The notes under the pieces: generated by a model
What the model was told of the DNA's origin: nothing
The model's database searches: none
The model's input: the letters and a program-made list of their open reading frames with translations, nothing else
Translations under genes and position numbers: made by a program
Assembly (NCBI GenBank): GCA_001466705.2
Contig: LATX02000100.1
Location: 744,001-808,000 of the forward strand
DNA length: 64,000 bases
Reading direction: 5' to 3'
DNA from: Moniliophthora roreri
Lineage: Eukaryota; Basidiomycota; Agaricomycetes; Agaricales; Marasmiaceae
Shown here: positions 21,184-61,334 of the stretch, piece by piece
Layout: every line of letters starts with the position of its first letter
Numbering within the stretch: position 1 is the first letter of the stretch

Positions 21184-21595
21184 AGAAAATATTTTGGAGT
21201 TGGGCAGTCATACTTTATGATTGTAAGACCCTCTTCATTTGTAATAAAAGAGATGAATATTGAAAAGTTGACTTGGTCACACAAGATAAGAGACATAACA
21301 CACAACTACATGCAGCTGGAATTGAAAGAGTGACTGGCTACATGGAAGATATACAGAGTTATAGTAGAGTTACAGAGAGTGGAGTATCAGAGATAACAAC
21401 TGTAAGAGTTGAGTCTCAGAAAGAATATTTTTATAGAGACGTTTTAAGAGTGAGAGGTGATGTTTGATACGAAGGTTACGAAGAGGAATGGGAATATAAC
21501 GAAATCTGGTATCTAGCTCGAACAAGGTTAACTGAAGTTGAGCCTTTGCATGAGCAAGGAACTGAAGTATGCTTCCTAAACCTTGAGAAAAGGCT
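21184..21595. other. Pol to antisense-gene interval
   Basis: About 410 bases between two convergent coding ends. There is an AATAAAAG near 21242 that could act as a polyadenylation signal for the pol transcript. No other feature is seen. Confidence 0.35.
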
Positions 21596-22914
21596 CTAAG
21601 TATCAACTGGAGCAGGGACTGTTCCAACCTCGACAAGAGAATGAACGGGTTGAGCTTCTCCCATTTGTTCATCTTGGATAGCAACTTTGGAGAGACGGAT
21701 ATGATTGACCTCTTCAAGACTCTTAGCAGAGACCTGGTATTGGCCAATGTAGAAGTGAATATTGTGTTCCAAGGAAGAGAGTTCAGCATGAAGGAAGTTT
21801 GAGACTGACAAGAGGACTTTGGATGAAGCCTTTTCAAGGTCAAGGAAAGGAATCAATGCTGATTTCTTAGCAATTGATTCAAATGCGAGGGCACGGAGTG
21901 CTTGTTCGTCTAAAGAGATAGAATATTAACGTCTATAAACGGTATTGAGACAGAGAATAACAAACCAGTTGTTTCTTGGCGACAATCCACAACTGATGAA
22001 GAGACCTTACTCTTCTTGGAAGCAGAAGAAGTCGGTTTGGCCTCAGAAGCAGTGGAGGTAACCTATTAGAGAGCAAATATTAAGAAAATTGAGGGGTTAA
22101 AGGGGTGAGAGAAGGACTCACGTCGAGAGATTTATTCGGAACATTTTTGTCCTTTTCCTTTTTATCTGCCTTGAAAGAAGTGAAAGATTGGAGAGAGACA
22201 GAGCTTGATAATAAATAGAGAAACATACAGCATTATTTTTAGTGAAATGGACTTTCTGCACAGGATCGTTCGTGGAACCAGACTTAGGAGCATGGACAGA
22301 GGTAGAAAGGGACCTGGCATCCTGCATCTGTTGATATAAGCAGATGAATATGTGGTTAATATTAATGAAATGAGGGGAATCGTACTTCCAGATCATCATT
22401 CGTATTGTTGACGATTTGTACTTCCTCCTCATCTGATGAATCCACAGATACTTTTGAGGCCTTGCGCTTTCCTAGAAACGATATTTATAATGTCAGAGCA
22501 TGAATAAAGAAGAACTAAGAACTGACGATTTTTGGATGCAGCTGCATGGGCACAAAAGGCATGCATTTCATGTGTAAAAGCCTCGAGTGAATCCAGGACG
22601 AATGGAGCTTTGGCACCAGTCAAGATCTGAGAATTGATAAACTCGATGCAAGCACAATAGAGTTTGTAGGCTTCATCGTGAGTGGCGACATGCTTAAAAT
22701 TAAGTCGTCCTTTCTAGAAACAGAAATAATATTTAGAAGTAAATAAAAGAGAAGATAGAATATTAAGAAGTACCAGATGCTCCGCAAGTTGTGCAACCAA
22801 AAGGCTATGAATAGTAGGGTTGCTACCGTTTGTGGAACGCTTAATGAAGTTGAACAGCTTGTTTGTGTTGTGAAGCCATGTCTGGCAATCAGGCCAAGAG
22901 TTGGATGGAGGCAT
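21596..22914 (-). CDS. Intact multi-exon gene antisense to the Gypsy pol; unknown function
   Basis: I do not recognise this family. Seven exons on the minus strand: 22914-22774, 22713-22527, 22471-22386, 22327-22229, 22169-22122, 22062-21966 and 21909-21596. The introns are 55-60 bp, all GT-AG, and the lengths sum to exactly 324 codons including the stop with every phase agreeing. The ATG at 22914 is the first in frame. The protein (323 residues) begins MPPSNSWPDCQTWLHNTNKL, has a helical N-terminal part (to about 105), a basic KNRKRKASK stretch followed by an acidic DSSDEEEVQ stretch, a low-complexity Ser/Lys-rich middle, and a helical C-terminal part starting about 218 with DEQALRALAFESIAKKSALI. 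No signal peptide or membrane span. It lies between dead pol and the LTR in antisense orientation. That the frame is clean while pol has stops suggests recent capture, selection, or a younger insertion. Confidence 0.65.
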
Positions 22915-23104
22915 TGAAGCAGTACTCAAAATATTAGACAACAAATGTTGAGATGAGAGAGACAGAGGGTAAAAGTATGAAGATCTATTGTTTGAGCACA
23001 CAGAATTTATAGGTATAGCCTATAAATCGTGCACGTTCACGATAATATGTGTTGGAAATTGTTGGAAGAGAGTTTTGGAAAATGTGTACCTGCCTGAACA
23101 ACGG

Positions 23105-23140
23105 GGACATTGTTATTATTTAGTTGGGGGGAGGAATACA
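23105..23140 (+). other. Polypurine-tract-like sequence upstream of the antisense gene
   Basis: TTTAGTTGGGGGGAGGAATA occurs here on the plus strand, the same core as the two tracts beside recognised LTRs at 14462 and 27180. It may mark the end of one element, a second internal tract, or a fossil LTR boundary. No clear TG start follows directly, so I cannot place an LTR. Confidence 0.4.
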
Positions 23141-23936
23141 CACTGGAAATTTCAACAATTTTCAACATTTCAAAAGGATTGAATAGAGATTGGCATATGG
23201 AAGTTTCAGAAACCCACTAAAACATGTGAATAGTGGATGGAACAACTATCGGCCGGAAAAAGAGAAGCATATGTAGACAGGGAAACTATTCAAGGAAATG
23301 GAATGTGGCACAAGAGGAACTTTGTTGAGATAAAAGGAGTCCCGATGCCGCAACCAAGAAAATAAGAAATAGGAACAATAGTTTCAATTCAGTTCCGAAG
23401 ACGAAAGAGTATTTGATTGGGTCACTAAATATAGAGCACTTATGCATACATATGGAGAATGACACGTACAGAAAGGCTTAGAGATTGGCAATAGATAAGA
23501 AAGAGAAATTTCAGGATAGACTTATCTACATGATTAGAGAGATAAGAAAGGATGATAAAAGCATGGGATAGCGATATACAAACGTGCTTGACTCAGAGAT
23601 GTTGAAGTCCAAAATGGATTGGGACTTATAATATTTTATGTGTTGGTTTAGAATATGAATATGAGATGTAATATGATTCTTCAGTATGCAAATAGTAATG
23701 AAACTATAGCTACTGAAGTAAAGTCCAATTGGATAGAAAATATCTAAGTACTTGAGATGAATGTACTTATGATATTTCTACAGCAGAGATATGAGATATA
23801 AAGAATATTTAAGTATGCATGATGAATGTACTTTAAATATTCCCGCAGCAAGACAGTATAGTAGGCAATAATATTGTGTCCGAGAGTGATACAAGAGCCC
23901 AACCAGTGCCAACCAAGAGAAGAACACGACAAAGTC
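23141..23936. other. Non-coding interval between two antisense genes
   Basis: Roughly 800 AT-rich bases without a coding frame. A GAGCACTTATGCATACATAT segment near 23430 loosely resembles GAGCTTATGCATACAC near 27748, so it may be internal or LTR sequence of the same element family. Confidence 0.35.
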
Positions 23937-26747
23937 CTATGTCGGAAGGGTATACAGTACCTCGTCCTCGTCCTCATCAGTTGACTCAGGAGCAGTCAAA
24001 AGGTGAGGCAGGCCGAAAAACGTGATACTATCCGAAGCAGACAACGGTGTCAGCAAAGACACAGGTTGTGGCACATCCACCAGCTTACTAGGAAGTAGTT
24101 GGTTAGTGAGATAATAAAATAATAATAAAGAGTAGAAGAGAAATGTACCAAGGGATTAGCATTTTCAGCTACCGTAGCACTGGCTTGGTTAGTCAAGTCA
24201 ATGGTATTTGTAGGACTAGCGGCACGAGGGGTAGCAGAGGAAGGCCCAGTGTCAGCAGTCTATAAGACAAAGAAAATATTAATGGAAAGAAGATTGAATG
24301 AGAGATAGTAGACTTACAGAATTGGATGGACCAGCTTCGTTATCGACGGTGAGACCTTCGAAATGTGGGGCTTTGGACCCATTGACCATGACGACCTTGT
24401 TGTCGACGATCATGTACGAACCAGACTTTAGACCAGTGACGTCAAAGTCAGTACCCTTCAAAATGACCTGTACGTCGCTAAGAGAAGCAGAGAACGGATC
24501 CACGGGGCAAATGACTTCGAATTCATAGCTGTCTGGAACACCCATATCCCTAGCGATCCAACCCAGAGAAGTACAGAGGATGTTGAGTTGTTTCTCTGAA
24601 GGAGTAAAGTTGGGATCGTGCCAGAATAGATATTTCAAGATGACACAAGGATCAGCGCAGCTGGCTCGAAGGAGCTCTCGACATTGTTGAAGCGCACTTT
24701 TGACAGATTCCTCTTCAACACGGAGCAAGAAGATCTGTTGTCAAATGCAAAAGGACAAGACCATTAAGTCGAAGATGGCGGACATCTGGAAAGCAAGACC
24801 TGAAAGAATATTTAGATTAGAATGAGATTAATAAGGAAAGAAAGAATAATATTACCGGCAAGACTACTCAGCGATTGGACAAAGTGCTGATTGTTCACAG
24901 TGAAGGCATCAAAGAAGTACATCCCGAATGAGCATCGCAATTGAAGACGAGTGCATCGTTGACAGCAGGTGGATGTTCCTGAGCCAGTTTCACAACGAGC
25001 ATTGGCCGAGTCGCATTGAGTGCACGAAAGCTTATTGCTGATATCTGCATCGGCCTATAGAAAGAAGAATATTTAGAAAGATATTAAAGATAAGATGAAG
25101 AAACAAGAATATTACCCCGGGATGAGTGGTCAGAGTGGACACGATCTTGTGCACAGGCCAGAAAGTGTCGCTATAACCAAGATTTAGTAGTCCAGGGTGA
25201 GCTAGAGAGAGAAGAATTAGAGAGCATAAGGGTAGATAGTGGGTAAACGACTTACATCGGAGTACCTCCATGGCCTTAGTTCAGCCAAGAGCTTGGAGAA
25301 GCCGGAGGACATTCGAAGTGTTTTCCTTTGCAGGACAACCTTGGCCCACTCCACCGACTATGTCTTCCAAATTTAGGTCTTGGATGGACTTAGCAGCAGA
25401 TGGTTGCGAAGGGTCCAGCTCATCGATATCCATATCCTCAGCACCCTAGAAACAGAATATTAATGAAGAATGATGAATGTTGTAAGAAGAAGGAGACTTA
25501 CGTTCTTCTCGCCTTCATCAGGAGGAGGGTCGACGGCACGTTTCTTACCTTTAGGGTCAGAACTCTAAATGGATGACGTATTAGGAACATGAAAGATATA
25601 ATATTAAAGAGAGTAATACCTTATCTGCAGCCTTGGTAACATTATGAGCACGTTTTCTGGCAGGAGGCTACAGCAAAGGTTAATAAGAAAGAGATTTAAC
25701 GAGAAATTTACAAGACGAACCTGAGGCAGAGAGGTATCGCAGGCCTTGCACTTTGAAGAGGATGGTTCCATCTTGATATTTACTTGAGAAGAAGAAGCAG
25801 CAGCTGGTCGAGACTACCGAGGGGTAAATATTAAGTTTAGAGAGGGTTCCATAGAGGATGGAACTCACCTTCTGCTTAGTTTTACTAGAGCCACTGGAGT
25901 GGACCAGCTATGAAGAGAAAAGAATATGAGAAATAGAAAGAGAATATTATTATTAGAATGAGTACACGTACCACTTCGACGATAGGAGTAGCATGAGCGG
26001 GAGGCTTAATAGAACGAACAGGATGTTTGGAGGGCTTCACTTCGACAATGTCTTCGTCACCAGAGCCATCTTCATTGCTGCTGTCGGAGTCTTCGTGGTC
26101 TGAGATTTCAATGTCATTGTTGATATCAGGAACATTTTGGTCAGGATCGTATTCGGCCAATATCTCCTCATTTGAAGGGAAGTTTTCCAAAGGATTGAGT
26201 GGCTGGAGGATAATAATATTAATAAGAGAAGAAGAACGATTGGATAAGAGAACATACCTTAAGCCCCAAAGTATGCTTCCAGAAATGGAACTGAGATTTG
26301 GAGGGGAAAGCACTGTAGAGGTTGTTGGGGATAGAAATGGAAAAACAAGATTCGAGGCATTTCAGAAGTTGAAGGGCCAGCAGGAGCAGACGCATGAAAG
26401 TATGGGGGAACCAGAACTTTCCGCAGTACTTGTTGAGTGGGACTTTAGAGAATAATAATTAGAGAAGGGAATCATGAACAGAAAACAAGAAGGGGACCTA
26501 CCAGAGGGATTTTCATAGCTGGGAAGGCGTAATTTGCCAAAGCGGACGCGCTGGTGAAGAGAGAAGACTGCCCTTCGAGGTGTCTCCAGATGTTACGACA
26601 AGTATCGAATAGCATCATGCAATGAAGGTGGAGGATGCTAAGAGTGGTGGCATTGATGGAGGAGAGTTGAGGGAGAGAGACATCCTTCGACTTCGAGAAA
26701 GAGGCGATGGGAGTGGCAGTGGACTTGCTCTTAACCTTGCAAGTCAT
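23937..26747 (-). pseudogene. Thirteen-exon antisense gene with Zn2Cys6-like cysteine cluster, lightly broken
   Basis: Unknown family, homologous to the fragment at 14920-15773. The minus-strand ATG at 26747 (MTCKVKSKSTATPI) starts exon 1 (26747-26502) and the last exon stops at 23937. About 12 introns of mostly 52-65 bp, nearly all phase 0, can be placed. Segments in order: helical N-terminus with SILHLHCMMLFDTCRNIW; exon 26442-26258 with YCGKFWFPHTFMRLL; NPLENFPSNEEILAEYD; acidic HEDSDSSNEDGSGDED; basic linkers with ARKRAHN and GKKRAV; a LEDIVGGVGQG block; SDTFWPVHKIVSTLTTHPG; a cluster C-x2-C-x6-C-x9-C-x2-C-x6-C at about 24936-25034; then a 150-residue region ending near 24320 and an acidic tail. 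Defects: TGA at 24741-24743, a frameshift in the exon near 25290-25310 and a phase mismatch after exon 1. It sits antisense between pol and the polypurine tract at 27180. The cluster matches the spacing of fungal Zn2Cys6 DNA-binding domains, but lacks the usual basic residues, so DNA binding is only a possibility. Confidence 0.6.
24936..25034 (-). other. Cysteine cluster spaced like Zn2Cys6 within the antisense gene
   Basis: The translated minus strand has six cysteines spaced C-x2-C-x6-C-x9-C-x2-C-x6-C, plus one extra Cys directly before the fourth. It is encoded within one exon. The spacing is the classic fungal binuclear zinc pattern; the intervening residues are not strongly basic. Confidence 0.5.
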
Positions 26748-27167
26748 GTCGAGTAAGAGGAGAGGAAGAAAGAGGAAAAGATAATCCAAGTTTGAAATGG
26801 ACTCTACTTAAATATTTGTCGAAGATCGATCTGAAAATATTTAAGTGAATAGAACGAGAAGAATATAGAAGAAAATGAACTTACCGAATTTGGCTACGAG
26901 AAGCCTGATGGTAACAGAAGAACAACCTAACACCGAGTATCAGAAGTAGACTTCGAACGCATGGCTATGGAGATCATCTGATGTTACGGAAAAGGCAAGA
27001 GAAATTGATGCAGAAGAGATAAAGATAAGATAAAGAAATCCCAGAGAGAGATTTTAGTATCATTGGAAAGAGCTTGAAAAGGCCTACAAGAAGGTGGTTA
27101 TTTCATATCAGGAGATGCAGTATTAAGAGAATCCCGTGTTTCACCCATAATATTAACAGATTGGGGA

Positions 27168-27199
27168 TAATCCTTTTCTTTAGTTGGGGGGAGATGATA
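27168..27199 (+). other. Polypurine tract before the 3' LTR
   Basis: TTTAGTTGGGGGGAGATGAT precedes TGCATAAC. Position and sequence match the tract at 14462 on the other strand, so the plus-oriented element carrying the antisense gene(s) ends here. Confidence 0.6.
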
Positions 27200-28807
27200 T
27201 GCATAACTTTTGCCTTTTATTTCACACACAAATAGAGAATATTTTGCACTTTTATGGTTGAAAATGACATATACAAGGGAATTGAGGACTAGTGTGAGCT
27301 CTGAGCAGCTAGTCAAAGTGAGTAGTAGAGAAGGGTACAAAATATTAGCAGAGTAATGGTTGACGGTAGGCCATACAAGGGTACCCGGCCACTGCTAGTA
27401 TGAAAATAGACAGCGAATCTGAACACAGAGGAGCATTCCGAAACCTGTAGGGAAACACACCACATCACACCTCTCTATTGAAAGCATACCAAAGGGAATA
27501 TTTTAACTTTTAACAATATTTTCAATCCATACCTGACTTGAAAGAAGAATAAAAGCCTTCGATGATACACCAACTAGAATATTACCGAGAAATGGATATG
27601 AAACAGAGAATGACAAATTATCGGCAGGGGATACTCGAGATACCGATAATCAAATTAGGGGAATGAAATAGATGATTGGTTACTGAAAAGGTGCCTGTAT
27701 CACAGAAAGTGGAAGACAAAGCTGTATGACGAGAAGATAGCATGGCTGAGCTTATGCATACACTTTAGAGGAGATATGGAAGCATATTACGTGTCCACAG
27801 AGCAGATGACAATAGACAGAGAAGGAAGGAACCATGCGGAGTGGCATGGAAGTATAATATTTTCAAATGGAGTCGGAAGGAGAGCTGTTTGATTGAAGAA
27901 ATTGCAAACAATTAGTGTCAGGAGACTGCACAATCGTCATGGAAAAAGAATAAAAGAGATTATGGCTACGAAGCTTGACTACAATTGGACACTGTGACAG
28001 AGAAATTACCAAACACTGCTCAGTTTATATAATATTTAGCACCCAACTCAGTTTTATTTGTATGTGTGACAGACATATTAGATTATTTATGTTGTAGGGT
28101 ATAAAAGGGGACGTGTTTTGTAGGTGGAAAGCAGGAGAGATACTGCCCACCGATTACCAGAGTGTATGACGTTGTTGCTCAGGTAGAAGAGCTACCGGCA
28201 ATCAGTATTTTTCAACCACTTCGGGCTCTAGCTTATTTAGTTGTGCAAGAGGCACAGGCTAGTTGAGACCTGAGATTGTAACCCAAACCAGAGATATAAA
28301 TAAAAGCTAGGAAGAGCTTAGTTTTTAGCGCAAGAGGCATGTTTTCTGATAAGAAGAATATTGTATCAGTTTACCAAGAGGGTAACTGACATGCATCAGT
28401 ATAGTCTGGTGTTTCAATGTGAATCAGAGAGGGTTTCAGGCTAGCAGTGTCTAGAAGATTTGTCCTCTTGAGAATCATTGCAGAACATAGCTAAGAGGGC
28501 TATATTCAGGTACAAGAGGTACCTTTATTCTTGCTTAGAAGAAGTTTATTCTTTGGGCAGCTTCTGGTCGAAAATCTATACCAGTATTTTCTTTCGAAGT
28601 GATAATAAACCCACATAACCAATAAATATTATACAAAAAGAACACCAATCTCAATCTGAGAAGTTGTTTTGAAGGCATTCATCTCTGAACTACCGAGTGA
28701 GACATTGAGAAATTATTCTTGACGTTGCAGTAACAGTGAACCACACCAAACCAACTCACAAACAAAACTGAGAATCAAGAACTTATATATACCTTTTTCA
28801 GGGGTAT
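27200..28807 (+). repeat. Putative LTR, about 1.6 kb, with TATA box and polyadenylation signal
   Basis: It begins TGCATAAC right after the polypurine tract and may end CTTTTTCA just before GGGGTATTTTGGCACCACAG, which looks like an LTR edge followed by a primer-binding site. Inside are TATAAAAG at 28100 and AATAAAAG near 28302, in the order expected for U3-R-U5. The right boundary is an inference. From 27945 onward the sequence belongs to the block duplicated at 33809. Confidence 0.5.
28100..28107 (+). promoter_or_regulatory. TATA box of the putative LTR
   Basis: GGGTATAAAAGGGGACG is a strong core-promoter TATA context, about 200 bases upstream of the AATAAA-type signal. An identical copy sits at 33964. 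Confidence 0.55.
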
Positions 28808-28848
28808 TTTGGCACCACAGGCCTCGTGTTTTCATAGTAGAGGCATAG

Positions 28849-31314
28849 GTTTTTGAGCATCTTCAGCAGATCCAGTCAGAGACACAGACAGGGAACAAAC
28901 TCAAGAGAATTAGGAGTGATAACACACCCGAGCTCCATTCCGACCTCGCAAAATCCTGGTTCCAGAAACATGGTATAACCCATGAGTTCACTATCCCCTA
29001 CTCTTCGGCATCTAATGGTGCAGGAGAACGCACCATCGGTGTGGTGCTTCAGTCTGTTCAGTCCATGCTGCTAGATTCTCAACTGTCAGCCAAGTGGTGG
29101 GCTCATGCAATGGCCACAGCAACTCACACAATAAACCTGTTCCCATCGGCTCAAACTCCATCAAAAGTTCCTGAGGAGGCATGGACCAGCCAATGACAGA
29201 CAGCACAGTACCTGGTGCCCTTTGGCAGCATCGGATTCACACACATTCCCAAGGAAACTGGCAGAGGGAAATTGGACCCTCGAGGTGAGAAGGTTGTCAT
29301 GTTGGGCTACGATGGACATGGTGTTTACCTCGCAAAGCTGTGGGACTCAGACAAGGTCTTGAGGGTAAGAGACGTTGTATGGTTGAAGGATGGGGGACAC
29401 TGGGTTGAGAATGATAATCATGATGTTCAAGAAGACCTATCATTCCTGGAATTTGAAGATAACGAGTTCGTTGATCATGATGCCATAACGCCAACAACTC
29501 TGTGTTCCAAGCCGATGGAGTCTACCCCTCAAATCTCCAAGCCGCTGGCCAATTCACTCCGAGATGATCAACGTCGATGTCATAGGTGTACTCAGGAAGA
29601 AATCTGGGGAACTGAGGCAACTAGACACACTACGAGAGATCCTGTGCCTAGCAGAAGAACCCTGGATGCCATGAATTCCGAGCTACCTCCCGTCCCAGAA
29701 CCTGACAACAACTGGGTACCTGACACATACAAGAAGGCGGCTACCAGGCTTGACCTGTAGGGACCAGCTATGGAGAAGGAGTTAAAGAAAATGGATGATC
29801 GAAAGGCGTTCACACCCATGCCGAGGCCTCCAAACACACCTATGGTCATGTTGAAATGGCATTACACACTCCGGAAGGATGGGGAAGGAAGGATAACAGA
29901 GAGGCGGGCAAGGTTGGTTGTAAGAGGGTTCACCCAAGTCAAAGGAGTACATTATGAGGATACTTGGGCCATGGTTGCAAGGTATGAGTCTTTACAGTTC
30001 GTTATTGCCATTGCTGCCTATTACGGCTTGAATCTCTGGTCTGGGGACTTCACTGCCACCTACCTGAACACAAAGCCACAGGGAGTCAATTATCTCAACC
30101 TTCCTCCAGGGTATGAGAGTCGATATGACTTATGGGACGGGGCCAAAACGGTACTCCGCATGGACATCAATATCTACAGCACAAAAGATGCAGGAAACAA
30201 CTGGTTCCGAATGCTGGATGAAACGTACTGAGAACTAGGCCACTTCCCCATATCAGCCAACCTCTGTGTACAAACAAAGACCACCGAACTTGGCAATACC
30301 ATCACAGTCACTTACACAGACAATGTCATTGGAGTATCAGACACTGAGGAGGCCAAGGAAGTGTCGGTAAAAGAAATTGGAGCTGCATATGACTTCAGGT
30401 TTTATAGAGAACCCAATGTCGCTCTGGGAATAACCATCCAACAAAATCTGGAGACAGGCAATGTCAGCATCCACCAGCGTCCTCTCATTGAAAAGGTCAT
30501 TGAAGGCCATGGATTACAAAACACTATGCCCAAATTTACTCCTCTTCCATCAAATCTCACCCTCATTGACAGTCAACTGATCCCTATTCCATTGGAGGAC
30601 TCAGATTACATGCGGAGTAAAGACTACTGTAGGCTTGTAGGATCACTAAATCACATTTCCCAGGGTACATGTCCCGACATATCGTATGCAGTCATGTTAT
30701 TGCAGCGCTATGCAAATGACCCATGGCCCGTGCATTGGAATGCCGCAATACATGTTGTAACCTATCTCAAGGGCACCATTTCCTATCAGCTCACGTACCA
30801 GCGTCGCCAAGGGGGAGAAGATCTCTTGAAGCCAGATGGATATGCCGACGCATCACATGCCAATATACAAGAAGAGAACGGGGAACCTACCAGAAAGTCA
30901 ACGATGGGGTATGTTTTCAAGGTAGCAGGGGGAGTGGTGAGTTGGTGCTCAGTGAAGCAAAGGGTAGTGGCGCTGTCGACAACCGAAGCCGAATACATCG
31001 CCATGGTCAATGCTGGGAAGCAAACAATCTGGATGTGGAAATTTCTTGATGGGGTAGGGCATCGCCATGAGTACCCCTTTGCAATCAAGGTCGACAATAC
31101 CAGCACAATAGCATTATCAGATGAAACGACTAAACACAGGCAAATGAAGCACTTTGACACCAACTGGTCATGGCTCTGGGACATGGTTCATGCGAAGGAA
31201 CTCGAGTTCAATTATGTTCCATCCAGTGATAACTTAGCCAACCTCTTTACCAAACAACTCACTCGAAGCAAGACCGAGCAGTTTTCACTCAAAATTGGAC
31301 TTCGAGACAACTGA
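28849..31314 (+). pseudogene. Ty1/Copia pol remnant (integrase C-part, RT, RNase H), copy 1
   Basis: A single frame with three in-frame stops: TGA 29194-29196, TAG 29758-29760 and TGA 30229-30231. The integrase end shows ETQTGNKLKRIRSDN and PYSSASNGAGERTIGV with the catalytic Glu. A linker carries PFGSIGFTHIPKETG. RT has ARLVVRGFTQVKGVHYEDT and, where YVDD is expected, YTDNVIGVSD, so one catalytic Asp is Asn. RNase H shows DGYADASHA, LSTTEAEYIAM and KHRQMKHF. Gag, protease and the integrase N-terminal part are absent; the frame is cut by stops just upstream of 28849, next to the putative LTR. Both stops and the catalytic change make it inactive. Confidence 0.88.
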
Positions 31315-31336
31315 TCGCGTGCCAATTCAGAGGGAG

Positions 31337-31517
31337 TGTCAAAGATTGCGGGTGATACATGAATTGCCACCTGATCATACATTTCTACTCTGTACTCTAT
31401 TTCTTGTTCCCACTTCCCGACTACGATACACATTCTATATAATATACATCCGACTCGTCTTACCTATTAATCAAATTCCCCAGTTTAGTATTTATTAGCT
31501 ATGTATGCATTGTAACA
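31337..31517 (+). repeat. Possible short Copia 3' LTR, copy 1
   Basis: AGAGGGAGTGTCAAAG after the pol stop has the purine tract plus TG start typical of Copia 3' LTRs, and TGTAACA at 31517 is a possible end. No matching 5' LTR is seen, so this is tentative. Confidence 0.35.
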
Positions 31518-31708
31518 CCTCAGCCGTTCACACATCTAGTGAGACTGTCTGAGGTAAGATACATTATTTCTTTCATATATTTCTCTTACTCACAACCAAT
31601 CCCTACAGTACTTATTCTGCTATTTACAACAGGTACTGTAGAGGCATCAATACAGCCATTCACACATCTAGTGAGACTGTCTGAGTACTTATTCTGCTAT
31701 TTACAACA
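31518..31708 (+). repeat. 132-bp minisatellite, about 1.3 units (copy 1)
   Basis: One full unit containing CACATCTAGTGAGACTGTCT and a partial second unit. The equivalent array in the duplicated block at 37382 has one more full unit. Confidence 0.75.
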
Positions 31709-32500
31709 CCTTTGATTGTCACGATTAACAGCTCTTCTTGAGTACAAGGTAATGTCCCACTATATCGGCCTGGAGCATTGATTGACTCCTCACTTCAGTG
31801 CATTCTCGCAATTTTGATCAGGAACTTTGAGTTTTCGGACACAGGGGCCAAAATTGAGACCAAGTTCAGTGCGACCATGCAGCCTAGAGTGGTTGGAAAG
31901 GAAGCAGAGGGAGCGCAGTTACTATTGAAAGTTACCTTGGTAGAGAATTAATACCAGCAAGTTTGAATGATGTAGATTTACACTAATATTATCTGGCATT
32001 GAAAAGACTGCGACTCAAGGCTTATCATTAACATTCTATGACAAGAATAGGTTAATGTCCTGTCAGCCACTGTATTCTTCAGCAGAGATATACCTGCTCT
32101 TCTAGATCAATATAGGTAGAAACCTCTGTGCGATTGGTCAAGATTGAACCCAACCAGGTCACCTTTTGAGTCCTCAACAGGTCCCCTGAAAACTCATAGG
32201 GCATATAATTCACTTGGGGTACGATCCTTACTTATCATTTCGGGGCGGTTGTGGTGGGATGCCTGTAAAACTTCAAAACTGATGACATGGACACACTTGT
32301 ATCATCAGCGACCCAAGGTTTTGTTATTCATACCCAGGTATTCTACAGCATTTGGTACTAACAATAGTACAGGATTAACATCTGATAGAAGATCTGATTA
32401 GATGGGCAAGGGCCTTGTCAAATAATCCCTAACATACAATTATATCAAGGTGATTACCACTGCGGTGTTCATTAGGTCCACAACCAGAGAAGCTGAATCA
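31709..32500. other. Unassigned sequence in the duplicated block
   Basis: No coding frame or known repeat recognised. It contains two of the three blocks (31951-31978 and 32206-32251) that appear complemented in the second copy. Confidence 0.4.
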
Positions 32501-32559
32501 AACTTGAACTGAGCAAGCAGGCGGGTAGGAAATGGGCTTGACTTGCGCGTTACATATGG

Positions 32560-33395
32560 TATGTAAGAATTTGATGTGTGAATCTTGAGGGCAGCTTTGC
32601 AGAGAGGGTGAACTGGAGTAACTGCTCGAGAATGAAGTTGACAACATGTACCATGTCAAGGATGTCAAGTCACTGCCTTGATGGATTGAAATTGGGACTG
32701 AATAAAAAGAGCATGGATACCCATAGGAAATTCCCAAACTTGTCTAGGTTCCATGGACACCTCAGTTATGCGATTTTGAAAGGCTTGCTTTAATTTCTTG
32801 AGCTGGGCACAACACGATGACTGTCCTGACTGGAGAGCCATTTGCTTGAGATGCCTAAAAACAATCTCTCTGTCAGTATGTAACTGGAATGTATTGCTAT
32901 CACACGTCCCAGTCCACTTGTCCCAATACTCATACAATCGCAGTGTTTGGGGATCTGAATCTCATTACCAAAGGAGGCATTGAAGAGATAGTTTCCATTG
33001 GTAACAAAATCCTCGATGGCAAATGGGGGGAGCTTCATGGAAGGGTATCTAGAAAAGGTTTGAACCATTTGAGAACCAAAAACACAAGAGTAGTCACGTC
33101 TTGGAAAACCCCACGCATGTTTTCAGAACTGCAAGACCTCTACAAGTCGAGCAACCAAGCTTTCAGGTAGGTCAGGGATCTGATTCTCCTTCGTACCCAC
33201 AGGGTGTAGAAGGTAAGCCATCCTCGACATGGATGAAAAAGGATTCAGAGATCTACCAAGATGAAAGATGAAAGATATCGGGTGACCATAGTCTGAGTTG
33301 AACTCTGAAAGAATATTTCTGCATCGACTAGTCACGGTTTCTTGAGAAAGAATCCGAAGATCACGAATTAGGTTTACTTGGGTCGTTAGGATCAA
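32560..33395 (-). pseudogene. Decayed unknown gene, copy 1
   Basis: Minus-strand coding traces switch frame several times. Readable pieces in order are ILSQETVTSRCRNILSEF, KLPPFAIEDFVTNGNYLF with NASFGNEIQI, YEYWDKWTGTCDSNTFQL, then HTDREIVFRHLKQMALQSGQ and WEFPMGIHALFIQSQFQSI. The run of residues looks protein-like across the frame changes, so this is probably a gene broken by frameshifts. I do not recognise the family. Confidence 0.4.
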
Positions 33396-33416
33396 GGATC
33401 AGGGTCGCGATCGGCG

Positions 33417-33807
33417 TGATCGAAGTGGGCAACCCCACCAAAGTCCGACTATCCCGATCATCGGTTCTATGTACTTAAAGTCGTCTTTAACCTGGACCAT
33501 CACCACTCCACCATGTCCATGTCTCCAGTCAATCCATGGCCCGGACTTCAAACTCATATGAGGGCTCTCCAAAACAATGCTGCCAGTAGCAACGCAAAAA
33601 ACAGTGCCTGTAACGGCTACAGCCCTCTTCTCTTCCACCTTTTCCCATTGGATAAATTTGTTATCTATTCCCCAATCAATATTACCGCGTTCCCTCTCAC
33701 ATATGTCGTGTACACCCAACAGGAGCATGCTGTTTTGCTTTTCCAAGTTCGGGCGCCGGATGATCTTGCCTCAGAAGCTGCCAGAGGAATGGCTGATGAA
33801 GAGTTGA
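33417..33807. other. Unique spacer between the two 5.5-kb copies
   Basis: 391 bases found only once in the window. A 115-codon minus-strand frame (33399-33746) crosses it but has no recognisable domain. It ends at the N at 33808. Confidence 0.4.
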
Positions 33808-34712
33808 NAAAGAATAAAAGAGATTATGGCTACGAAGCTTGACTACAATTGGACACTGTGACAGAGAAATTACCAAACACTGCTCAGTTTATATAATATT
33901 TAGCACCCAACTCAGTTTTATTTGTATGTGTGACAGACATATTAGATTATTTATGTTGTAGGGTATAAAAGGGGACGTGTTTTGTAGGTGGAAAGCAGGA
34001 GAGATACTGCCCACCGATTACCAGAGTGTATGACGTTGTTGCTCAGGTAGAAGAGCTACCGGCAATCAGTATTTTTCAACCACTTCGGGCTCTAGCTTAT
34101 TTAGTTGTGCAAGAGGCACAGGCTAGTTGAGACCTGAGATTGTAACCCAAACCAGAGATATAAATAAAAGCTAGGAAGAGCTTAGTTTTTAGCGCAAGAG
34201 GCATGTTTTCTGATAAGAAGAATATTGTATCAGTTTACCAAGAGGGTAACTGACATGCATCAGTATAGTCTGGTGTTTCAATGTGAATCAGAGAGGGTTT
34301 CAGGCTAGCAGTGTCTAGAAGATTTGTCCTCTTGAGAATCATTGCAGAACATAGCTAAGAGGGCTATATTCAGGTACAAGAGGTACCTTTATTCTTGCTT
34401 AGAAGAAGTTTATTCTTTGGGCAGCTTCTGGTCGAAAATCTATACCAGTATTTTCTTTCGAAGTGATAATAAACCCACATAACCAATAAATATTATACAA
34501 AAAGAACACCAATCTCAATCTGAGAAGTTGTTTTGAAGGCATTCATCTCTGAACTACCGAGTGAGACATTGAGAAATTATTCTTGACGTTGCAGTAACAG
34601 TGAACCACACCAAACCAACTCACAAACAAAACTGAGAATCAAGAACTTATATATACCTTTTTCAGGGGTATTTTGGCACCACAGGCCTCGTGTTTTCATA
34701 GTAGAGGCATAG

Positions 34713-37178
34713 GTTTTTGAGCATCTTCAGCAGATCCAGTCAGAGACACAGACAGGGAACAAACTCAAGAGAATTAGGAGTGATAACACACCCGAGCTCC
34801 ATTCCGACCTCGCAAAATCCTGGTTCCAGAAACATGGTATAACCCATGAGTTCACTATCCCCTACTCTTCGGCATCTAATGGTGCAGGAGAACGCACCAT
34901 CGGTGTGGTGCTTCAGTCTGTTCAGTCCATGCTGCTAGATTCTCAACTGTCAGCCAAGTGGTGGGCTCATGCAATGGCCACAGCAACTCACACAATAAAC
35001 CTGTTCCCATCGGCTCAAACTCCATCAAAAGTTCCTGAGGAGGCATGGACCAGCCAATGACAGACAGCACAGTACCTGGTGCCCTTTGGCAGCATCGGAT
35101 TCACACACATTCCCAAGGAAACTGGCAGAGGGAAATTGGACCCTCGAGGTGAGAAGGTTGTCATGTTGGGCTACGATGGACATGGTGTTTACCTCGCAAA
35201 GCTGTGGGACTCAGACAAGGTCTTGAGGGTAAGAGACGTTGTATGGTTGAAGGATGGGGGACACTGGGTTGAGAATGATAATCATGATGTTCAAGAAGAC
35301 CTATCATTCCTGGAATTTGAAGATAACGAGTTCGTTGATCATGATGCCATAACGCCAACAACTCTGTGTTCCAAGCCGATGGAGTCTACCCCTCAAATCT
35401 CCAAGCCGCTGGCCAATTCACTCCGAGATGATCAACGTCGATGTCATAGGTGTACTCAGGAAGAAATCTGGGGAACTGAGGCAACTAGACACACTACGAG
35501 AGATCCTGTGCCTAGCAGAAGAACCCTGGATGCCATGAATTCCGAGCTACCTCCCGTCCCAGAACCTGACAACAACTGGGTACCTGACACATACAAGAAG
35601 GCGGCTACCAGGCTTGACCTGTAGGGACCAGCTATGGAGAAGGAGTTAAAGAAAATGGATGATCGAAAGGCGTTCACACCCATGCCGAGGCCTCCAAACA
35701 CACCTATGGTCATGTTGAAATGGCATTACACACTCCGGAAGGATGGGGAAGGAAGGATAACAGAGAGGCGGGCAAGGTTGGTTGTAAGAGGGTTCACCCA
35801 AGTCAAAGGAGTACATTATGAGGATACTTGGGCCATGGTTGCAAGGTATGAGTCTTTACAGTTCGTTATTGCCATTGCTGCCTATTACGGCTTGAATCTC
35901 TGGTCTGGGGACTTCACTGCCACCTACCTGAACACAAAGCCACAGGGAGTCAATTATCTCAACCTTCCTCCAGGGTATGAGAGTCGATATGACTTATGGG
36001 ACGGGGCCAAAACGGTACTCCGCATGGACATCAATATCTACAGCACAAAAGATGCAGGAAACAACTGGTTCCGAATGCTGGATGAAACGTACTGAGAACT
36101 AGGCCACTTCCCCATATCAGCCAACCTCTGTGTACAAACAAAGACCACCGAACTTGGCAATACCATCACAGTCACTTACACAGACAATGTCATTGGAGTA
36201 TCAGACACTGAGGAGGCCAAGGAAGTGTCGGTAAAAGAAATTGGAGCTGCATATGACTTCAGGTTTTATAGAGAACCCAATGTCGCTCTGGGAATAACCA
36301 TCCAACAAAATCTGGAGACAGGCAATGTCAGCATCCACCAGCGTCCTCTCATTGAAAAGGTCATTGAAGGCCATGGATTACAAAACACTATGCCCAAATT
36401 TACTCCTCTTCCATCAAATCTCACCCTCATTGACAGTCAACTGATCCCTATTCCATTGGAGGACTCAGATTACATGCGGAGTAAAGACTACTGTAGGCTT
36501 GTAGGATCACTAAATCACATTTCCCAGGGTACATGTCCCGACATATCGTATGCAGTCATGTTATTGCAGCGCTATGCAAATGACCCATGGCCCGTGCATT
36601 GGAATGCCGCAATACATGTTGTAACCTATCTCAAGGGCACCATTTCCTATCAGCTCACGTACCAGCGTCGCCAAGGGGGAGAAGATCTCTTGAAGCCAGA
36701 TGGATATGCCGACGCATCACATGCCAATATACAAGAAGAGAACGGGGAACCTACCAGAAAGTCAACGATGGGGTATGTTTTCAAGGTAGCAGGGGGAGTG
36801 GTGAGTTGGTGCTCAGTGAAGCAAAGGGTAGTGGCGCTGTCGACAACCGAAGCCGAATACATCGCCATGGTCAATGCTGGGAAGCAAACAATCTGGATGT
36901 GGAAATTTCTTGATGGGGTAGGGCATCGCCATGAGTACCCCTTTGCAATCAAGGTCGACAATACCAGCACAATAGCATTATCAGATGAAACGACTAAACA
37001 CAGGCAAATGAAGCACTTTGACACCAACTGGTCATGGCTCTGGGACATGGTTCATGCGAAGGAACTCGAGTTCAATTATGTTCCATCCAGTGATAACTTA
37101 GCCAACCTCTTTACCAAACAACTCACTCGAAGCAAGACCGAGCAGTTTTCACTCAAAATTGGACTTCGAGACAACTGA
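34713..37178 (+). pseudogene. Ty1/Copia pol remnant, copy 2
   Basis: The same frame as the remnant at 28849-31314, with the same three stops (35058, 35622 and 36093 starts) and the same YTDN in place of YVDD. Sharing all defects means the duplication came after the decay, or is an assembly repeat. Confidence 0.85.
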
Positions 37179-37200
37179 TCGCGTGCCAATTCAGAGGGAG

Positions 37201-37381
37201 TGTCAAAGATTGCGGGTGATACATGAATTGCCACCTGATCATACATTTCTACTCTGTACTCTATTTCTTGTTCCCACTTCCCGACTACGATACACATTCT
37301 ATATAATATACATCCGACTCGTCTTACCTATTAATCAAATTCCCCAGTTTAGTATTTATTAGCTATGTATGCATTGTAACA
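37201..37381 (+). repeat. Possible short Copia 3' LTR, copy 2
   Basis: Identical to 31337-31517. See that entry for the reasons and doubts. Confidence 0.3.
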
Positions 37382-37705
37382 CCTCAGCCGTTCACACATC
37401 TAGTGAGACTGTCTGAGGTAAGATACATTATTTCTTTCATATATTTCTCTTACTCACAACCAATCCCTACAGTACTTATTCTGCTATTTACAACAGGTAC
37501 TGTAGAGGCATCAATACAGCCATTCACACATCTAGTGAGACTGTCTGAGGTAAGATACATTATTTCTTTCATATATTTCTCTTACTCACAACCAATCCCT
37601 ACAGTACTTATTCTGCTATTTACAACAGGTACTGTAGAGGCATCAATACAGCCATTCACACATCTAGTGAGACTGTCTGAGTACTTATTCTGCTATTTAC
37701 AACAC
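37382..37705 (+). repeat. 132-bp minisatellite, about 2.3 units (copy 2)
   Basis: Two full units and a partial one. Read in one frame the unit is open and encodes 44 residues per repeat, starting RLSEVRYIISFIYFSYSQ, but nothing suggests it is translated. Confidence 0.8.
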
Positions 37706-37946
37706 CTTTGATTGTCACGATTAACAGCTCTTCTTGAGTACAAGGTAATGTCCCACTATATCGGCCTGGAGCATTGATTGACTCCTCACTTCAGTGCATT
37801 CTCGCAATTTTGATCAGGAACTTTGAGTTTTCGGACACAGGGGCCAAAATTGAGACCAAGTTCAGTGCGACCATGCAGCCTAGAGTGGTTGGAAAGGAAG
37901 CAGAGGGAGCGCAGTTACTATTGAAAGTTACCTTGGTAGAGAATTA

Positions 37947-37974
37947 TATGGTCGTTCAAACTTACTACATCTAA
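37947..37974. other. Block equal to the unreversed complement of 31951-31978
   Basis: All 28 bases are the Watson-Crick partner of the base at the same place in copy 1 (starting ATACCAGC versus TATGGTCG), while the bases just outside are identical. The order is not reversed. Confidence 0.95.
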
Positions 37975-38201
37975 TACACTAATATTATCTGGCATTGAAA
38001 AGACTGCGACTCAAGGCTTATCATTAACATTCTATGACAAGAATAGGTTAATGTCCTGTCAGCCACTGTATTCTTCAGCAGAGATATACCTGCTCTTCTA
38101 GATCAATATAGGTAGAAACCTCTGTGCGATTGGTCAAGATTGAACCCAACCAGGTCACCTTTTGAGTCCTCAACAGGTCCCCTGAAAACTCATAGGGCAT
38201 A

Positions 38202-38247
38202 ATTAAGTGAACCCCATGCTAGGAATGAATAGTAAAGCCCCGCCAAC
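38202..38247. other. Block equal to the unreversed complement of 32206-32251
   Basis: All 46 bases are complemented in place (for example TTCACTTGGGG versus AAGTGAACCCC) and flanked by identical sequence on both sides. Confidence 0.95.
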
Positions 38248-38555
38248 TGGTGGGATGCCTGTAAAACTTCAAAACTGATGACATGGACACACTTGTATCA
38301 TCAGCGACCCAAGGTTTTGTTATTCATACCCAGGTATTCTACAGCATTTGGTACTAACAATAGTACAGGATTAACATCTGATAGAAGATCTGATTAGATG
38401 GGCAAGGGCCTTGTCAAATAATCCCTAACATACAATTATATCAAGGTGATTACCACTGCGGTGTTCATTAGGTCCACAACCAGAGAAGCTGAATCAAACT
38501 TGAACTGAGCAAGCAGGCGGGTAGGAAATGGGCTTGACTTGCGCGTTACATATGG

Positions 38556-39391
38556 TATGTAAGAATTTGATGTGTGAATCTTGAGGGCAGCTTTGCAGAG
38601 AGGGTGAACTGGAGTAACTGCTCGAGAATGAAGTTGACAACATGTACCATGTCAAGGATGTCAAGTCACTGCCTTGATGGATTGAAATTGGGAGACTTAT
38701 TTTTCTCGTACCTATGGGTTAGGAAATTCCCAAACTTGTCTAGGTTCCATGGACACCTCAGTTATGCGATTTTGAAAGGCTTGCTTTAATTTCTTGAGCT
38801 GGGCACAACACGATGACTGTCCTGACTGGAGAGCCATTTGCTTGAGATGCCTAAAAACAATCTCTCTGTCAGTATGTAACTGGAATGTATTGCTATCACA
38901 CGTCCCAGTCCACTTGTCCCAATACTCATACAATCGCAGTGTTTGGGGATCTGAATCTCATTACCAAAGGAGGCATTGAAGAGATAGTTTCCATTGGTAA
39001 CAAAATCCTCGATGGCAAATGGGGGGAGCTTCATGGAAGGGTATCTAGAAAAGGTTTGAACCATTTGAGAACCAAAAACACAAGAGTAGTCACGTCTTGG
39101 AAAACCCCACGCATGTTTTCAGAACTGCAAGACCTCTACAAGTCGAGCAACCAAGCTTTCAGGTAGGTCAGGGATCTGATTCTCCTTCGTACCCACAGGG
39201 TGTAGAAGGTAAGCCATCCTCGACATGGATGAAAAAGGATTCAGAGATCTACCAAGATGAAAGATGAAAGATATCGGGTGACCATAGTCTGAGTTGAACT
39301 CTGAAAGAATATTTCTGCATCGACTAGTCACGGTTTCTTGAGAAAGAATCCGAAGATCACGAATTAGGTTTACTTGGGTCGTTAGGATCAA
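38556..39391 (-). pseudogene. Decayed unknown gene, copy 2
   Basis: The same traces as at 32560-33395, but its last readable segment is destroyed by the complemented block at 38694-38719. Confidence 0.35.
38694..38719. other. Block equal to the unreversed complement of 32698-32723
   Basis: All 26 bases are complemented in place (CTGAATAAAAAG versus GACTTATTTTTC). In copy 1 this block keeps a minus-strand protein-like frame open; in copy 2 it breaks that frame after WEFPNP. Confidence 0.95.
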
Positions 39392-39413
39392 GGATCAGGG
39401 TCGCGATCGGCGN

Positions 39414-41224
39414 GCAGACATTTAATTCCTAGACGTGGGAGCTCGTGATGTGTTCCAGTGTACTCAGATATTCATAACGAAGATAGCTGTGGAGGTGTTG
39501 AGTTGAGCGCCAATATCAACCATAAGAATAACAGATATATGATAATGGTAGAGAAAATCATAAATGCCATTACTGAAGGTGTATATCTTCCTAACTTAAG
39601 CCTCGTTGAGCAAGGGATTACCGAGAAAGCGCTGCAGACCATTGCCTCAGACATCTTGGGATCACACTCAAGACCCAAAGAAGTATTCACGTACCGTCTT
39701 GTTTTCATTGCAACATCTTCAAACTGTGAATATAAGCTCAGTGAGTGCCAACAATTATTTAACAATAACATCTTGCTGACCGAAAAGGTGAGAATTTTTG
39801 GCACTATAGATGGGCAGCTGTGTTAGCAGATCAACGTCCAGCAATAAGGTGTCTTACTTACCATTCAACCGAAATAAATTTGAGGTGGACAAAAGTGATA
39901 AGAACTATCAGATACTGGTCATAGTGGCTTTATGAAGCAGTTCAGCCCCATCCCAAAGGATGTGAGGTGAGTAATCGGTAAGTTGTCGACTGTGGTGATG
40001 TGTGGTGATCACAGCGTGGTGATCATCTAGAAAAGTTTCTCCTACTTTGTTCCATCAATGCACTATCCTAAACACTTAAAGAAATCACAAGGCTCTTCAA
40101 ATTGTATTAACAGCATTGATGAATATAGACTAGTTGTGATATTTAAAGGTAGATTCACTGAGATTGGGTAAAAGCTTCGTGTTTGTTCGTACAACTTTAA
40201 ATACAGAGAGTGCTATTGAAAAACAATCTGGAAATCAAGGCAATCAACTTGCTATGCTGGATAACAGTCATTTGGATCCAAAGCGAAATGTACATTGTGA
40301 ACATATACAACCTACATATAGGATGTGAAGTACTATCGCGGAGACACGGAATGATTTACCATGCCCAAAACTGTGGCCAGCAGTCCTGACAGAGATGTTG
40401 CCGTAAATGAGAACTAGAACTACGAAAAGATCGGAAATCAGGAAAAAAAAACACCTACCATTCTCTATCACAGCATATGGTCAAACTCACTGAGGGAGGA
40501 TTCTCCGAGCGAGAACATGAGTATGTATCCATGACATTATAGAAATTGACCCGGGATCAATGCCCTGGAGGAGTCTGGCATACTTAATGGTAAGATTTCA
40601 AGATGAGGAGACAAAACAGCTATCTGGATATGTACCATATACATTCCAGTCTTCGGACGGCCCTAGGAAACAGCTTGATCCACCTCTTGTTATGCTCGGC
40701 ATCTATTCCCAGCTGAAACAGTATTAGTCCAATCCCAAGATAAGCTTAAGAGTATTCTATTTGATAGTTGCTTTAGAGCAGGGACTCACTTCTAGTCCAG
40801 ACAGTACATGGACATTCCACCTAACACCTTGGCAATAAATCCAGAAAGGGGAGGGGACACTGGATGGGCATCATGGGCCTGAGGTGGCGGCATCATGGCA
40901 GTTTGATGTCAAGAGGCGGATGTTGATCTATATTTATGCAATTAATGGTTGGGACTCGGCGACGGGAACATGTGGTGATGGCAACAGCGACAAAAAGGAA
41001 ACAATGACAATATCGATAGAACGGGAAATGCCAGACTGAGAGGTCAGGAAGTTCAGCGAGAATTTCGACCTTGGAGTGAGCTCTTGGTGCAAAATTCAAA
41101 TTACCAGAATTAATGATGGGTTTTAACGATGGGCGCCCTCTCAGCCCAAAAACTCTTCATATTTGATGCCGAGATAGGCATAGCTTGCCATCAAACCCGT
41201 GGTATTTCTCGGGCACCATAGGTG
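39414..41224. mobile_element. Long-TIR element (CACCTATGG family), right half, copy a
   Basis: It starts after an N with GACATTTAATTCCTAGACG near 39418 and ends CACCATAGGTG, the inverted end of the family seen complete at 59641-63286. The terminal repeat occupies roughly 40830-41224 and contains ATAAATATAGATC on its inward-reading strand. No transposase is recognised. Beyond its end the flank AAATGTAGCGAAAGGGC is the same as that of copy c at 44115, so copies a and c probably represent one genomic insertion. Confidence 0.6.
39458..39826 (+). other. Conserved 122-codon frame inside the long-TIR element
   Basis: The frame begins with a TTG-type codon and reads YSDIHNEDSCGGVELSANI through FGTIDGQL. 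Copies at 60867 and 61335 keep the same length; the copy at 41741 has lost about 90 bases. An equally long frame is open on the opposite strand, so coding is doubtful. I do not recognise either product. Confidence 0.25.
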
Positions 41225-41695
41225 AAATGTAGCGAAAGGGCATATGTGCATGTCAACCAGCCAAAGAAATGCGTAGAGCGGCGGGAATTCAATAGGAACA
41301 GGCACAGACTATTGGGCTCAGCGAGAGCAGAGTGTCCAATGTGATGGTCATCGTCAACTCAAGGCGCATTGAATGAGGTACTACAAACCATGTGAATGTG
41401 ATTAGGTCGAGGAAGCTTCTTCAATGCGAATTTTTCTTGATTACAGTCAGAGACAAGCTGTAGCAACGTGCCTGGCGAGGAGTCATATAGCTGAGTATGG
41501 AAGCCACAAAGGGTTTGCTCAGGGCACACGGCATGGCGACTTGAAGAATAAGGGACACAGCCTGCCCTGAAGCTACTGCCAATCGTGATTGCCACACCGA
41601 TCTTCATTGCATTCACAGGTGAGTCATTTCATCTCAGAAGCTTGAATGGATAACAAGGGCGAAAATCGCCTAACTGGTAAGCACGCGTCTGTGCG
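41225..41695. other. Flank of the long-TIR element
   Basis: 471 bases holding an 85-codon minus-strand frame (41359-41616) with several cysteines and no recognised domain. It may be an exon of a gene hit by the element. It ends at the N at 41696. Confidence 0.3.
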
Positions 41696-41696
41696 N

Positions 41697-43365
41697 GCAG
41701 ACATTTAATTCCTAGACGTGGGAGCTTGTGATGTGTTCCAGTGTACTCAGATATTCATAACGAAGATAGCTGTGGAGGTGTTGAGTTGAGCGCCAATATC
41801 GACCATAAGAATAACAGATATATGATAATGGTAGAGAATATCATAAATGCCATTACTAAAGGTGTGTATCTTCCTAACTTAAGCCTCGTTGAGCGAGGGA
41901 TTACCGAGAAAGCGCTGCAGACCATTGCCTTGGACATCTTGGGATCACACTCAAGACCCAAAGAAGTATTCACGTACCGTCTTGTTTTCATTGCAACATC
42001 TTCAAACTGTGAATATAAGCTCAAGATCAATGTCCAGCAATAAGGTGTCTTACTTACCATTCAACCGAAATAAATTTGAGGTGGACAAAAGTGATAAGAA
42101 CTATCAGATACTGGTCATAGTGGCTTTATGAAGCAGTTCAGCCCCATCCCAAAGGATGTGGGGTGAGTAATTGGTAAGTTGTCGACTGTGGTAATGTGTG
42201 GTGATCACAGCGTGGTGATCATCTAGAAAGGTTTCTCCTACTTTGTTCCATCAACGCGCTATCCTAAACACTTAAAGAAATCACAAGGCTCTTCAAATTG
42301 TATTAACAGCATTGATGAATATAGACTAGTTGTGATATTTAAAGGTAGATTCACAGAGATTGGGTAAAAGCTTTGTGTTTGTTCGTACAACTTTAAATAC
42401 AGAAAGTGCTATCGAAAAACAATCTGGAAATCAAGGCAATCAACTTGCTATGCTGGATAACAGTCATTTGGATCCAAAGCGAAATGTACATTGTGAACAT
42501 ATACAACCTACATATAGGATGTGAAGTACTATCGCGGAGACACGGAATGATTTACCATGCCCAAAACTGTGGCCAGCAGTCCTGACAGAGATGTTGCCGT
42601 AAATGAGAACTAGAACTACGAAAAGATCGGAAATCAGGAAAAAAAAACACCTACCATTCTCTATCACAGCATATGGTCAAACTCACTGAGGGAGGATTCT
42701 CCGAGCGAGAACATGAGTATGTATCCATGACATTATAGAAATTGACCCGGGATCAATGCCCTGGAGGAGTCTGGCATACTTAATGGTAAGATTTCAAGAT
42801 GAGGAGACAAAACAGCTATCTGGATATGTACCATATACATTCCAGTCTTCGGACGGCCCTAGGAAACAGCTTGATCCACCTCTTGTTATGCTCGGCATCT
42901 ATTCCCAGCTGAAACAGTATTAGTCCAATCCCAAGATAAGCTTAAGAGTATTCTATTTGATAGTTGCTTTAGAGCAGCACTTAGGGACTCACTTCTAGTC
43001 CAGACAGTACATGGACATTCCACCTAACACCTTGGCAATAAATCCAGAAAGGGGAGGGGACACTGGATGGGCATCATGGGCCTGAGGTGGCGGCATCATG
43101 GCAGTTTGATGTCAAGAGGCGGATGTTGATCTATATTTATGCAATTAATGGTTGGGACTCGGCGACGGGAACATGTGGTGATGGCAACAGCGACAAAAAG
43201 GAAACAATGACAATATCGATAGAACGGGAAATGCCAGACTGAGAGGTCAGGAAGTTCAGCGAGAATTTCGACCTTGGAGTGAGCTCTTGGTGCAAAATTC
43301 AAATTACCAGAATTAATGATGGGTTTTAACGACGGGCACCCTCTCAGCCCAAAAACTCTTCATAT
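41697..43365. mobile_element. Long-TIR element, copy b
   Basis: It restarts at the same GCAGACATTTAATTCC as 39414 and runs into the terminal repeat, stopping at an N at 43366 inside it. It differs from copy a by scattered transitions and by a deletion of about 90 bases near 42020. Confidence 0.6.
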
Positions 43366-43366
43366 N

Positions 43367-44174
43367 GTCGAACTCACTGAGGGAGGATCCTCCGAGTGAG
43401 AACATGAGTGCGTATCCATGACATTATAGAAATTGACCCGGGATCAATGCCCTGGAGGAGTCTGGCATACTTAATGGTAAGATTTCAAGATGAGGAGATG
43501 AAACAGCTATCTGGATATGTACCATATACATTCCAGTCTTTGGACGGCCCTAGGAAACAGCTTGATCCACCTCTTGTTATGCTCGGCATCTATTCCCAGC
43601 TGAAACAGTATTAGTCCAATCAGAAGATAAGCTTAAGAGTATTCTATTTGATAGTTGCTTTAGAACAGCACTTGAGGGACCCACTTCTAGTCCAGACAGT
43701 ACATGGACATTCCACCTAACACCTTGGCGATAAATCCGGAAAGGGGAGGGGACACTGGATGGGCATCATGGGCCCAAGGTGGCGGCATCATGGCGGTTTG
43801 ATGTCAAGAGGCGGATGTTGATCTATATTTATGCAATTAATGGTCGGGACTCGGCGACAGGAACATGTGGTGATGGTGACAGCGACAAAAAGGAAACAAT
43901 GACAATATTGATAGAACAGGAAATGCCGGACTGAGAGGTCAGAAAGTTCAGCGAGAATTTCGACCTTGGAGCTCTTGGTGCAAAATTCAAATTACCAGAA
44001 TTAATGATGGGTTTTAACGACGGGCACCCTCTCAGCCCAAAAACTCTTCATATTTGATGCCGAGATAGGCATAGCTTGCCATCAAACCTGTGGTATTTCT
44101 CGGGCACCATAGGTGAAATGTAGCGAAAGGGCATATGTGCATGTCGACCAGCCAAAGAAATGTGTAGAGCAGCG
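43367..44174. mobile_element. Long-TIR element, copy c (3' part with terminal repeat and flank)
   Basis: It restarts after the N with the segment equivalent to 42674, continues through the terminal repeat to CACCATAGGTG at 44115 and into the flank shared with copy a. It ends at the N at 44175. Confidence 0.6.
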
Positions 44175-61235: not shown

Positions 61236-61334
61236 CAGATCAACGTCCGGCAATAAGGTGTCTTACTTACCATTCAACCNTAACCTGCTAGCTGACATTT
61301 AATTCCTAGACGTGGGAGCTCGTGATGTGTTCCA

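Follow-up and report, generated by a model that had tools for sequence, protein, structure and literature searches.

What kind of process leaves a stretch of DNA complemented but not reversed relative to its sister copy? The question is raised by a 64,000-nucleotide stretch of a Moniliophthora roreri assembly (hereafter the window), in which two copies of a 5.5-kb sequence lie next to each other. The original prediction, made from the letters of the window, had claimed that the two copies differ only by an additional 132-bp unit and by three blocks (28, 46 and 26 bp) within which every base of copy 2 is the complement of the base at the same position in copy 1, an arrangement referred to here as a parallel complement. 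The features concerned are the following.

Copy 1, 27945-33416, plus strand: the unaltered reference, within the N-free piece 19957-33807 (13,851 bp)
Copy 2, 33809-39412, plus strand: a 5,604-bp piece, likely redundant, with a single N at each end
Single N, 33808, no strand assigned: left end of copy 2
Single N, 39413, no strand assigned: right end of copy 2
132-bp tandem unit, 37385-37681, plus strand: 2.2 copies in copy 2; copy 1 has one unit fewer
Block 1, 37947-37974, no strand assigned: 28 bp, parallel complement of 31951-31978; a shared stop codon is overwritten
Block 2, 38202-38247, no strand assigned: 46 bp, parallel complement of 32206-32251
Block 3, 38694-38719, no strand assigned: 26 bp, parallel complement of 32698-32723

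Base-by-base comparison bore out both parts of this claim. Indeed, none of the 100 bases within the three block pairs is identical between the copies, the complement being exact over the full length of each block, and no base differs outside the blocks and the 132-bp unit, at which the register between the copies moves from 5864 to 5996 (a shift of 132). Copy 2 carries 100 complemented bases, yet not one ordinary substitution relative to copy 1. When the parallel-complement matches of the window were ranked by length, the top three were blocks 1 to 3, and the fourth was a 17-bp match consisting mostly of an A/T run. The aligned blocks turned out to be neither reverse complements of copy 1 (0 of 3) nor simple reversals of it (0 of 3) nor unrelated sequence. 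In their short length, sharp edges and unchanged flanks the blocks are like microinversions, but a microinversion yields the reverse complement, whereas here the order of the letters is kept and the bases are complemented only. The idea that ordinary small inversions had been misread earlier is thus contradicted by all three blocks, has nothing in its favour and can be regarded as vanishingly improbable.

The window contains 12 single Ns, and those at 33808 and 39413, which the original prediction had not mentioned, coincide exactly with the ends of copy 2, so that copy 2 forms a single piece of 5,604 bp. As expected for a redundant placement, this piece is bounded by Ns and, leaving aside the extra 132-bp unit and the blocks, is contained in the neighbouring piece 19957-33807. 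Redundant repeat contigs in long-read scaffolds are similar, being N-bounded and near-exact duplicates of a neighbour, and we infer that copy 2 is such a contig placed by a scaffolder, in which case the second copy may not exist. Nevertheless, the placement of a duplicate alone alters no letters, and the complemented blocks require a second fault. Elsewhere in the window, the stretches 39414-44174 and 61281-63321 consist of short pieces (410-2,282 bp) chained by single Ns, which are partial copies of each other at about 93-99% identity, suggesting poorly resolved repeat arrays.

The identity of the altered copy was evaluated by aligning both copies to two paralogues, located on contigs C110 and C133 and sharing 91% and 90% identity, respectively, with the copy 1 region. 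At block 1 both paralogues exactly match the copy 1 version; at block 2 the C110 paralogue matches copy 1 exactly and the C133 paralogue follows it with single-base differences; at block 3 the C133 paralogue is again an exact match, while the C110 paralogue lacks 12 bases across the left edge, following copy 1 in the remainder. In addition, the stop codon beside block 1, which reads TAA in copy 1, TAA in C110 and TGA in C133, is overwritten in copy 2. Since the paralogues follow copy 1 and block 1 overwrites a common stop codon, the sequence comparison identifies copy 2 as the altered copy. The same conclusion had been proposed earlier on the ground that copy 1 keeps a protein-like frame open at block 3 whereas copy 2 breaks it. 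The conclusion stands, but this argument for it is weak, because the 90-residue frame is without a homologue in the protein collection searched. The overwritten stop codon at block 1 is a better sign than the open frame at block 3.

Regarding gene content, both copies carry a copia-type element, as indicated by a match to Pfam RVT_2 at 29770-30228 in copy 1. The element starts with a 0.92-kb high-copy repeat, which is taken as its long terminal repeat. What lies downstream of the element looks like the 3' end of a cytochrome P450 gene. Two pieces just upstream at the paralogous C110 locus match Pfam p450, and the final frame, which stops at a common position in copy 1, C110 and C133, probably belongs to the P450 gene. 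Three of the eight pieces scanned, including the C133 piece spanning a 34-bp block described below, gave no Pfam match. A third, near-identical copy of the repeat at 27945-28944 is found in reverse orientation at C133:201245-202244, with the P450 paralogue about 18 kb away. In other parts of the window, a retroelement polymerase frame at 18499-21183 runs on across the single N at 19956, and the part preceding this N shows an RNase H-like match that narrowly misses the Pfam cut-off (23.8 versus 24.8 bits). Moreover, a frame at 57550-58344 encodes an FAD-dependent oxidoreductase (D-amino-acid-oxidase-like) that shares 99% identity, across 77% of its length, with a protein of Moniliophthora roreri.

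Blocks of the same kind are present beyond the window. A sample of 319 kb of the same assembly was scanned, comprising the window and stretches of C68, C110 and C133, with 108,324 bases having a paralogue inside the sample, and two blocks were found in addition to the three of the window.

55-bp block, C110:2059941-2059995: contradicted by one C133 copy over 55 of 55 bases and by a second over the 45 bases that it kept
34-bp block pair, C110:2051657-2051690 versus C133:220273-220306: only two copies listed

The 34-bp pair looks to be part of the same P450 gene family as the 3' end carried by the copies of the window. In this pair C133 is probably the altered side, because C110 keeps a GTATGT, which we take to be an intron start, and C133 is without it. 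None of the five sample blocks is common to a second copy, bearing in mind that the listing for the 34-bp pair comprises only two copies. In particular, the altered state of copy 2 is private to it when compared with copy 1, C110 and C133, and that of the 55-bp block on C110 is contradicted by the two C133 copies. Among the 59,403 paralogue-covered bases of C68 outside the window no block was detected.

The specificity of the complement was assessed in the same sample with three control letter swaps (A-C/G-T, A-G/C-T and a cyclic shift), using 18-base seeds. With the complement, matches of 55, 46, 34, 28 and 26 bp were obtained, plus some of 18-19 bp, while none of the control swaps gave a match of more than 18 bp. 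Set against the 26-55 bp of the complement, control matches of this length in 319 kb leave chance similarity or convergent substitution, for which nothing speaks, with a probability close to nil. Plain mirror matches in the scan reached at most 22 bp and were mostly repetitive, although the mirror scan does not represent an independent control, as it views the same class on the other strand. A coding screen of the sample flagged one place, which was rejected as a block since both copies carry it identically; planted blocks were recovered by this screen in 24 of 600 cases (a sensitivity of 4%), making it uninformative on single-copy genes.

A broader view was obtained by taking repeats from the window and searching the entire 59.4-Mb assembly for their parallel complements, with only first-look candidates being scored. 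Three repeats served as detectors.

Detector 1, 27945-28864, plus strand: the 0.92-kb high-copy repeat; 508 first-look candidates for 27945-28944 when searched in forward form, 40 scored; three blocks elsewhere
Detector 2, 13400-14300, plus strand: a high-copy repeat; 941 first-look candidates, 40 scored; four blocks elsewhere
Detector 3, 40000-40900, plus strand: a lower-copy repeat; 52 first-look candidates, 40 scored; no blocks

The parallel complement of detector 1 gave three matches (E of 6.5e-10 or less) on C78, C16 and C91, and that of detector 2 gave four (E of 9.3e-8 or less), on C129, C18 (two) and C110. For both detectors no weaker match appeared up to an E of 10, the first-look candidates of these complement searches numbering 3 and 4, and the parallel complement of detector 3 had neither matches nor first-look candidates across the assembly. 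The A-C/G-T swap of detector 1 had no match in the assembly either; this is a weak control because the swap alters base composition, and the swaps in the sample are stronger. For the seven repeat-family blocks the window copy is the sole reference for the altered state. Five of them (L038, L040, L041, L042 and L043) are flanked by normal repeat on both sides, while L037 reaches the repeat end and L039 starts 3 bases from an N, each having normal repeat on one side. The L037, L038 and L039 blocks all fall in the last quarter of the 0.92-kb repeat (positions 704-920).

In total, 12 blocks are found on eight contigs, namely the three of the window and nine on C110, C133, C78, C16, C91, C129 and C18, with normal sequence on both sides in 10 and on one side in 2. 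The original prediction had asked whether the fault is systematic and had pointed to contig joins as the place to look. The nine further blocks elsewhere in the assembly answer the first part positively; the second does not hold as a rule, as a single block of the 12 lies 3 bases from an N. In 7 of the 12 the distance to the closest N is roughly 565 to 2,865 bases, and 4 have no N within the roughly 100 bases read on each side.

Could such blocks be written by the cell? On this account, DNA would be copied or joined in parallel orientation and thereby complemented without being reversed, and the exactness of the blocks and their spread over several scaffolds are in agreement with it. It would nevertheless need a polymerase that copies in parallel or 5'-5' and 3'-3' joins, and to our knowledge established enzymology provides neither. 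Furthermore, copy 2 would have undergone three such events and no ordinary substitution, and each of the five sample blocks is without a second copy that shares it (two copies being listed for the 34-bp pair). A real biological event is therefore highly improbable. The nearest thing to a biological route that was found is a 2014 paper claiming parallel synthesis by PCR (PMC4304224), which leaves unexplained how the blocks are joined to normal flanks. Likewise, we give very little credence to the more specific proposal that parallel-orientation copying in this fungus writes short unreversed complements into chromosomal repeat DNA.

The reading we favour, with a probability of roughly 85%, is that the three blocks are an assembly error in which stretches of the opposite strand were reversed without being complemented. 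When a minus strand is read backwards without complementing, the result is exactly the plus strand in parallel complement. If a contig was reversed for placement, the order of letters would be flipped everywhere and some letters could be left uncomplemented, for instance lower-case or specially marked bases passing through a case-sensitive translation table, which is the step that we infer and favour. Such a routine would produce sharp edges and preserve length, and it could have acted during assembly, scaffolding, polishing or gap closing. An error of strand handling in software appears most likely because the blocks recur on eight contigs, and it offers the best explanation because a faulty routine would yield exactly such blocks, while a molecule would need 5'-5' and 3'-3' junctions. 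The earlier attribution of the blocks to a data-handling fault is therefore strengthened by the paralogues, the N-bounded copy 2 and the nine further blocks. The letters of the window are all upper case, so a lower-case step would leave no visible trace. Counting against the strand-handling explanation are the location of most blocks away from any N, as well as the block-free detector 3 and the 59,403 block-free bases of C68, together with the pair of blocks on C18 described below, whose near-coincidence hints at a sequence-dependent trigger that this explanation does not supply.

Strand-handling errors in sequence files, where only one of the two operations, reversal or complementing, is applied to a record, likewise give an exact parallel complement. 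They are familiar from general practice and usually hit whole records, whereas the blocks described here are stretches of just 26-55 bases within contigs. Among the matches listed by a literature phrase search, judged by title and abstract opening, no report of such blocks inside an assembly was found. As for the software involved, SSPACE-LongRead is described as placing repeated elements and writing one or more Ns per gap (PMC4076250), and the single-N joins and placed repeats of the window fit this behaviour. Falcon and Arrow were used in a 2023 study of M. roreri, as was SSPACE-LongRead for a single M. roreri isolate (PMC10468315). The assemblies of that study have 11-21 contigs and hence differ from the present one, which has 154. 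The portions available of the scaffolder and gap-filling papers (PMC4076250, PMC6733440) describe no comparable fault.

What sets the position of the blocks may be partly readable from their edges. The two blocks on C18, L041 (C18:34476-34508) and L043 (C18:33582-33613), occupy almost coincident positions of one repeat in opposite orientation, their edges, as judged by eye, being offset by about 1 and 5 bases. This coincidence suggests that sequence may govern block placement, possibly through a sequence-dependent trigger. It would also be expected in gap closing or polishing if breaks depend on sequence, a second account in which short gaps (26-55 bases) in repeat contigs were closed with sequence from minus-strand reads and the inserted substring was reversed uncomplemented. 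Short, sharp-edged blocks inside N-free pieces, in repeats or duplicated sequence, are in line with such filling. On the other hand, their location in repeats proves little, because block detection by the present approach is possible only in repeated sequence, and for each of the five exactly bounded blocks the fill would have to be of precisely the true length. Overall, gap filling is a possible but rather unlikely source; it shares the reversed-but-not-complemented step with the strand-handling error favoured above, so that confidence in one overlaps with confidence in the other.

With respect to the flanks, all five exactly bounded blocks (window 37946/37975, 38201/38248 and 38693/38720; L007:5440/5496; L008:4272/4307) are bordered by a pair of complementary bases, one immediately to each side, this pair being A/T four times and T/A once. 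Among further blocks with usable edges this was the case in one of three, as judged by eye (L043, as opposed to L040 and L042). The complementarity is a post hoc observation and possibly due to chance. Two forms of masking were considered as triggers and rejected: low-complexity masking, as the DUST-like scores of the unaffected homologues of the five exactly bounded blocks are at the 9th-69th percentile of copy 1, and soft masking of whole repeats, which would complement entire repeat copies and not 26-55 bases.

Any assembly can be checked at little cost by searching it with its own repeats in parallel-complement form, and the yield obtained here with detectors 1 and 2 was seven strong matches and none that were weak up to an E of 10. 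If the blocks were biology, the antiparallel rule of DNA copying would be broken, and nothing here calls for that. If they are an error, more of them are probably hidden wherever the sequence has no sister copy, and blocks within genes would garble the predicted proteins while leaving their length unchanged.
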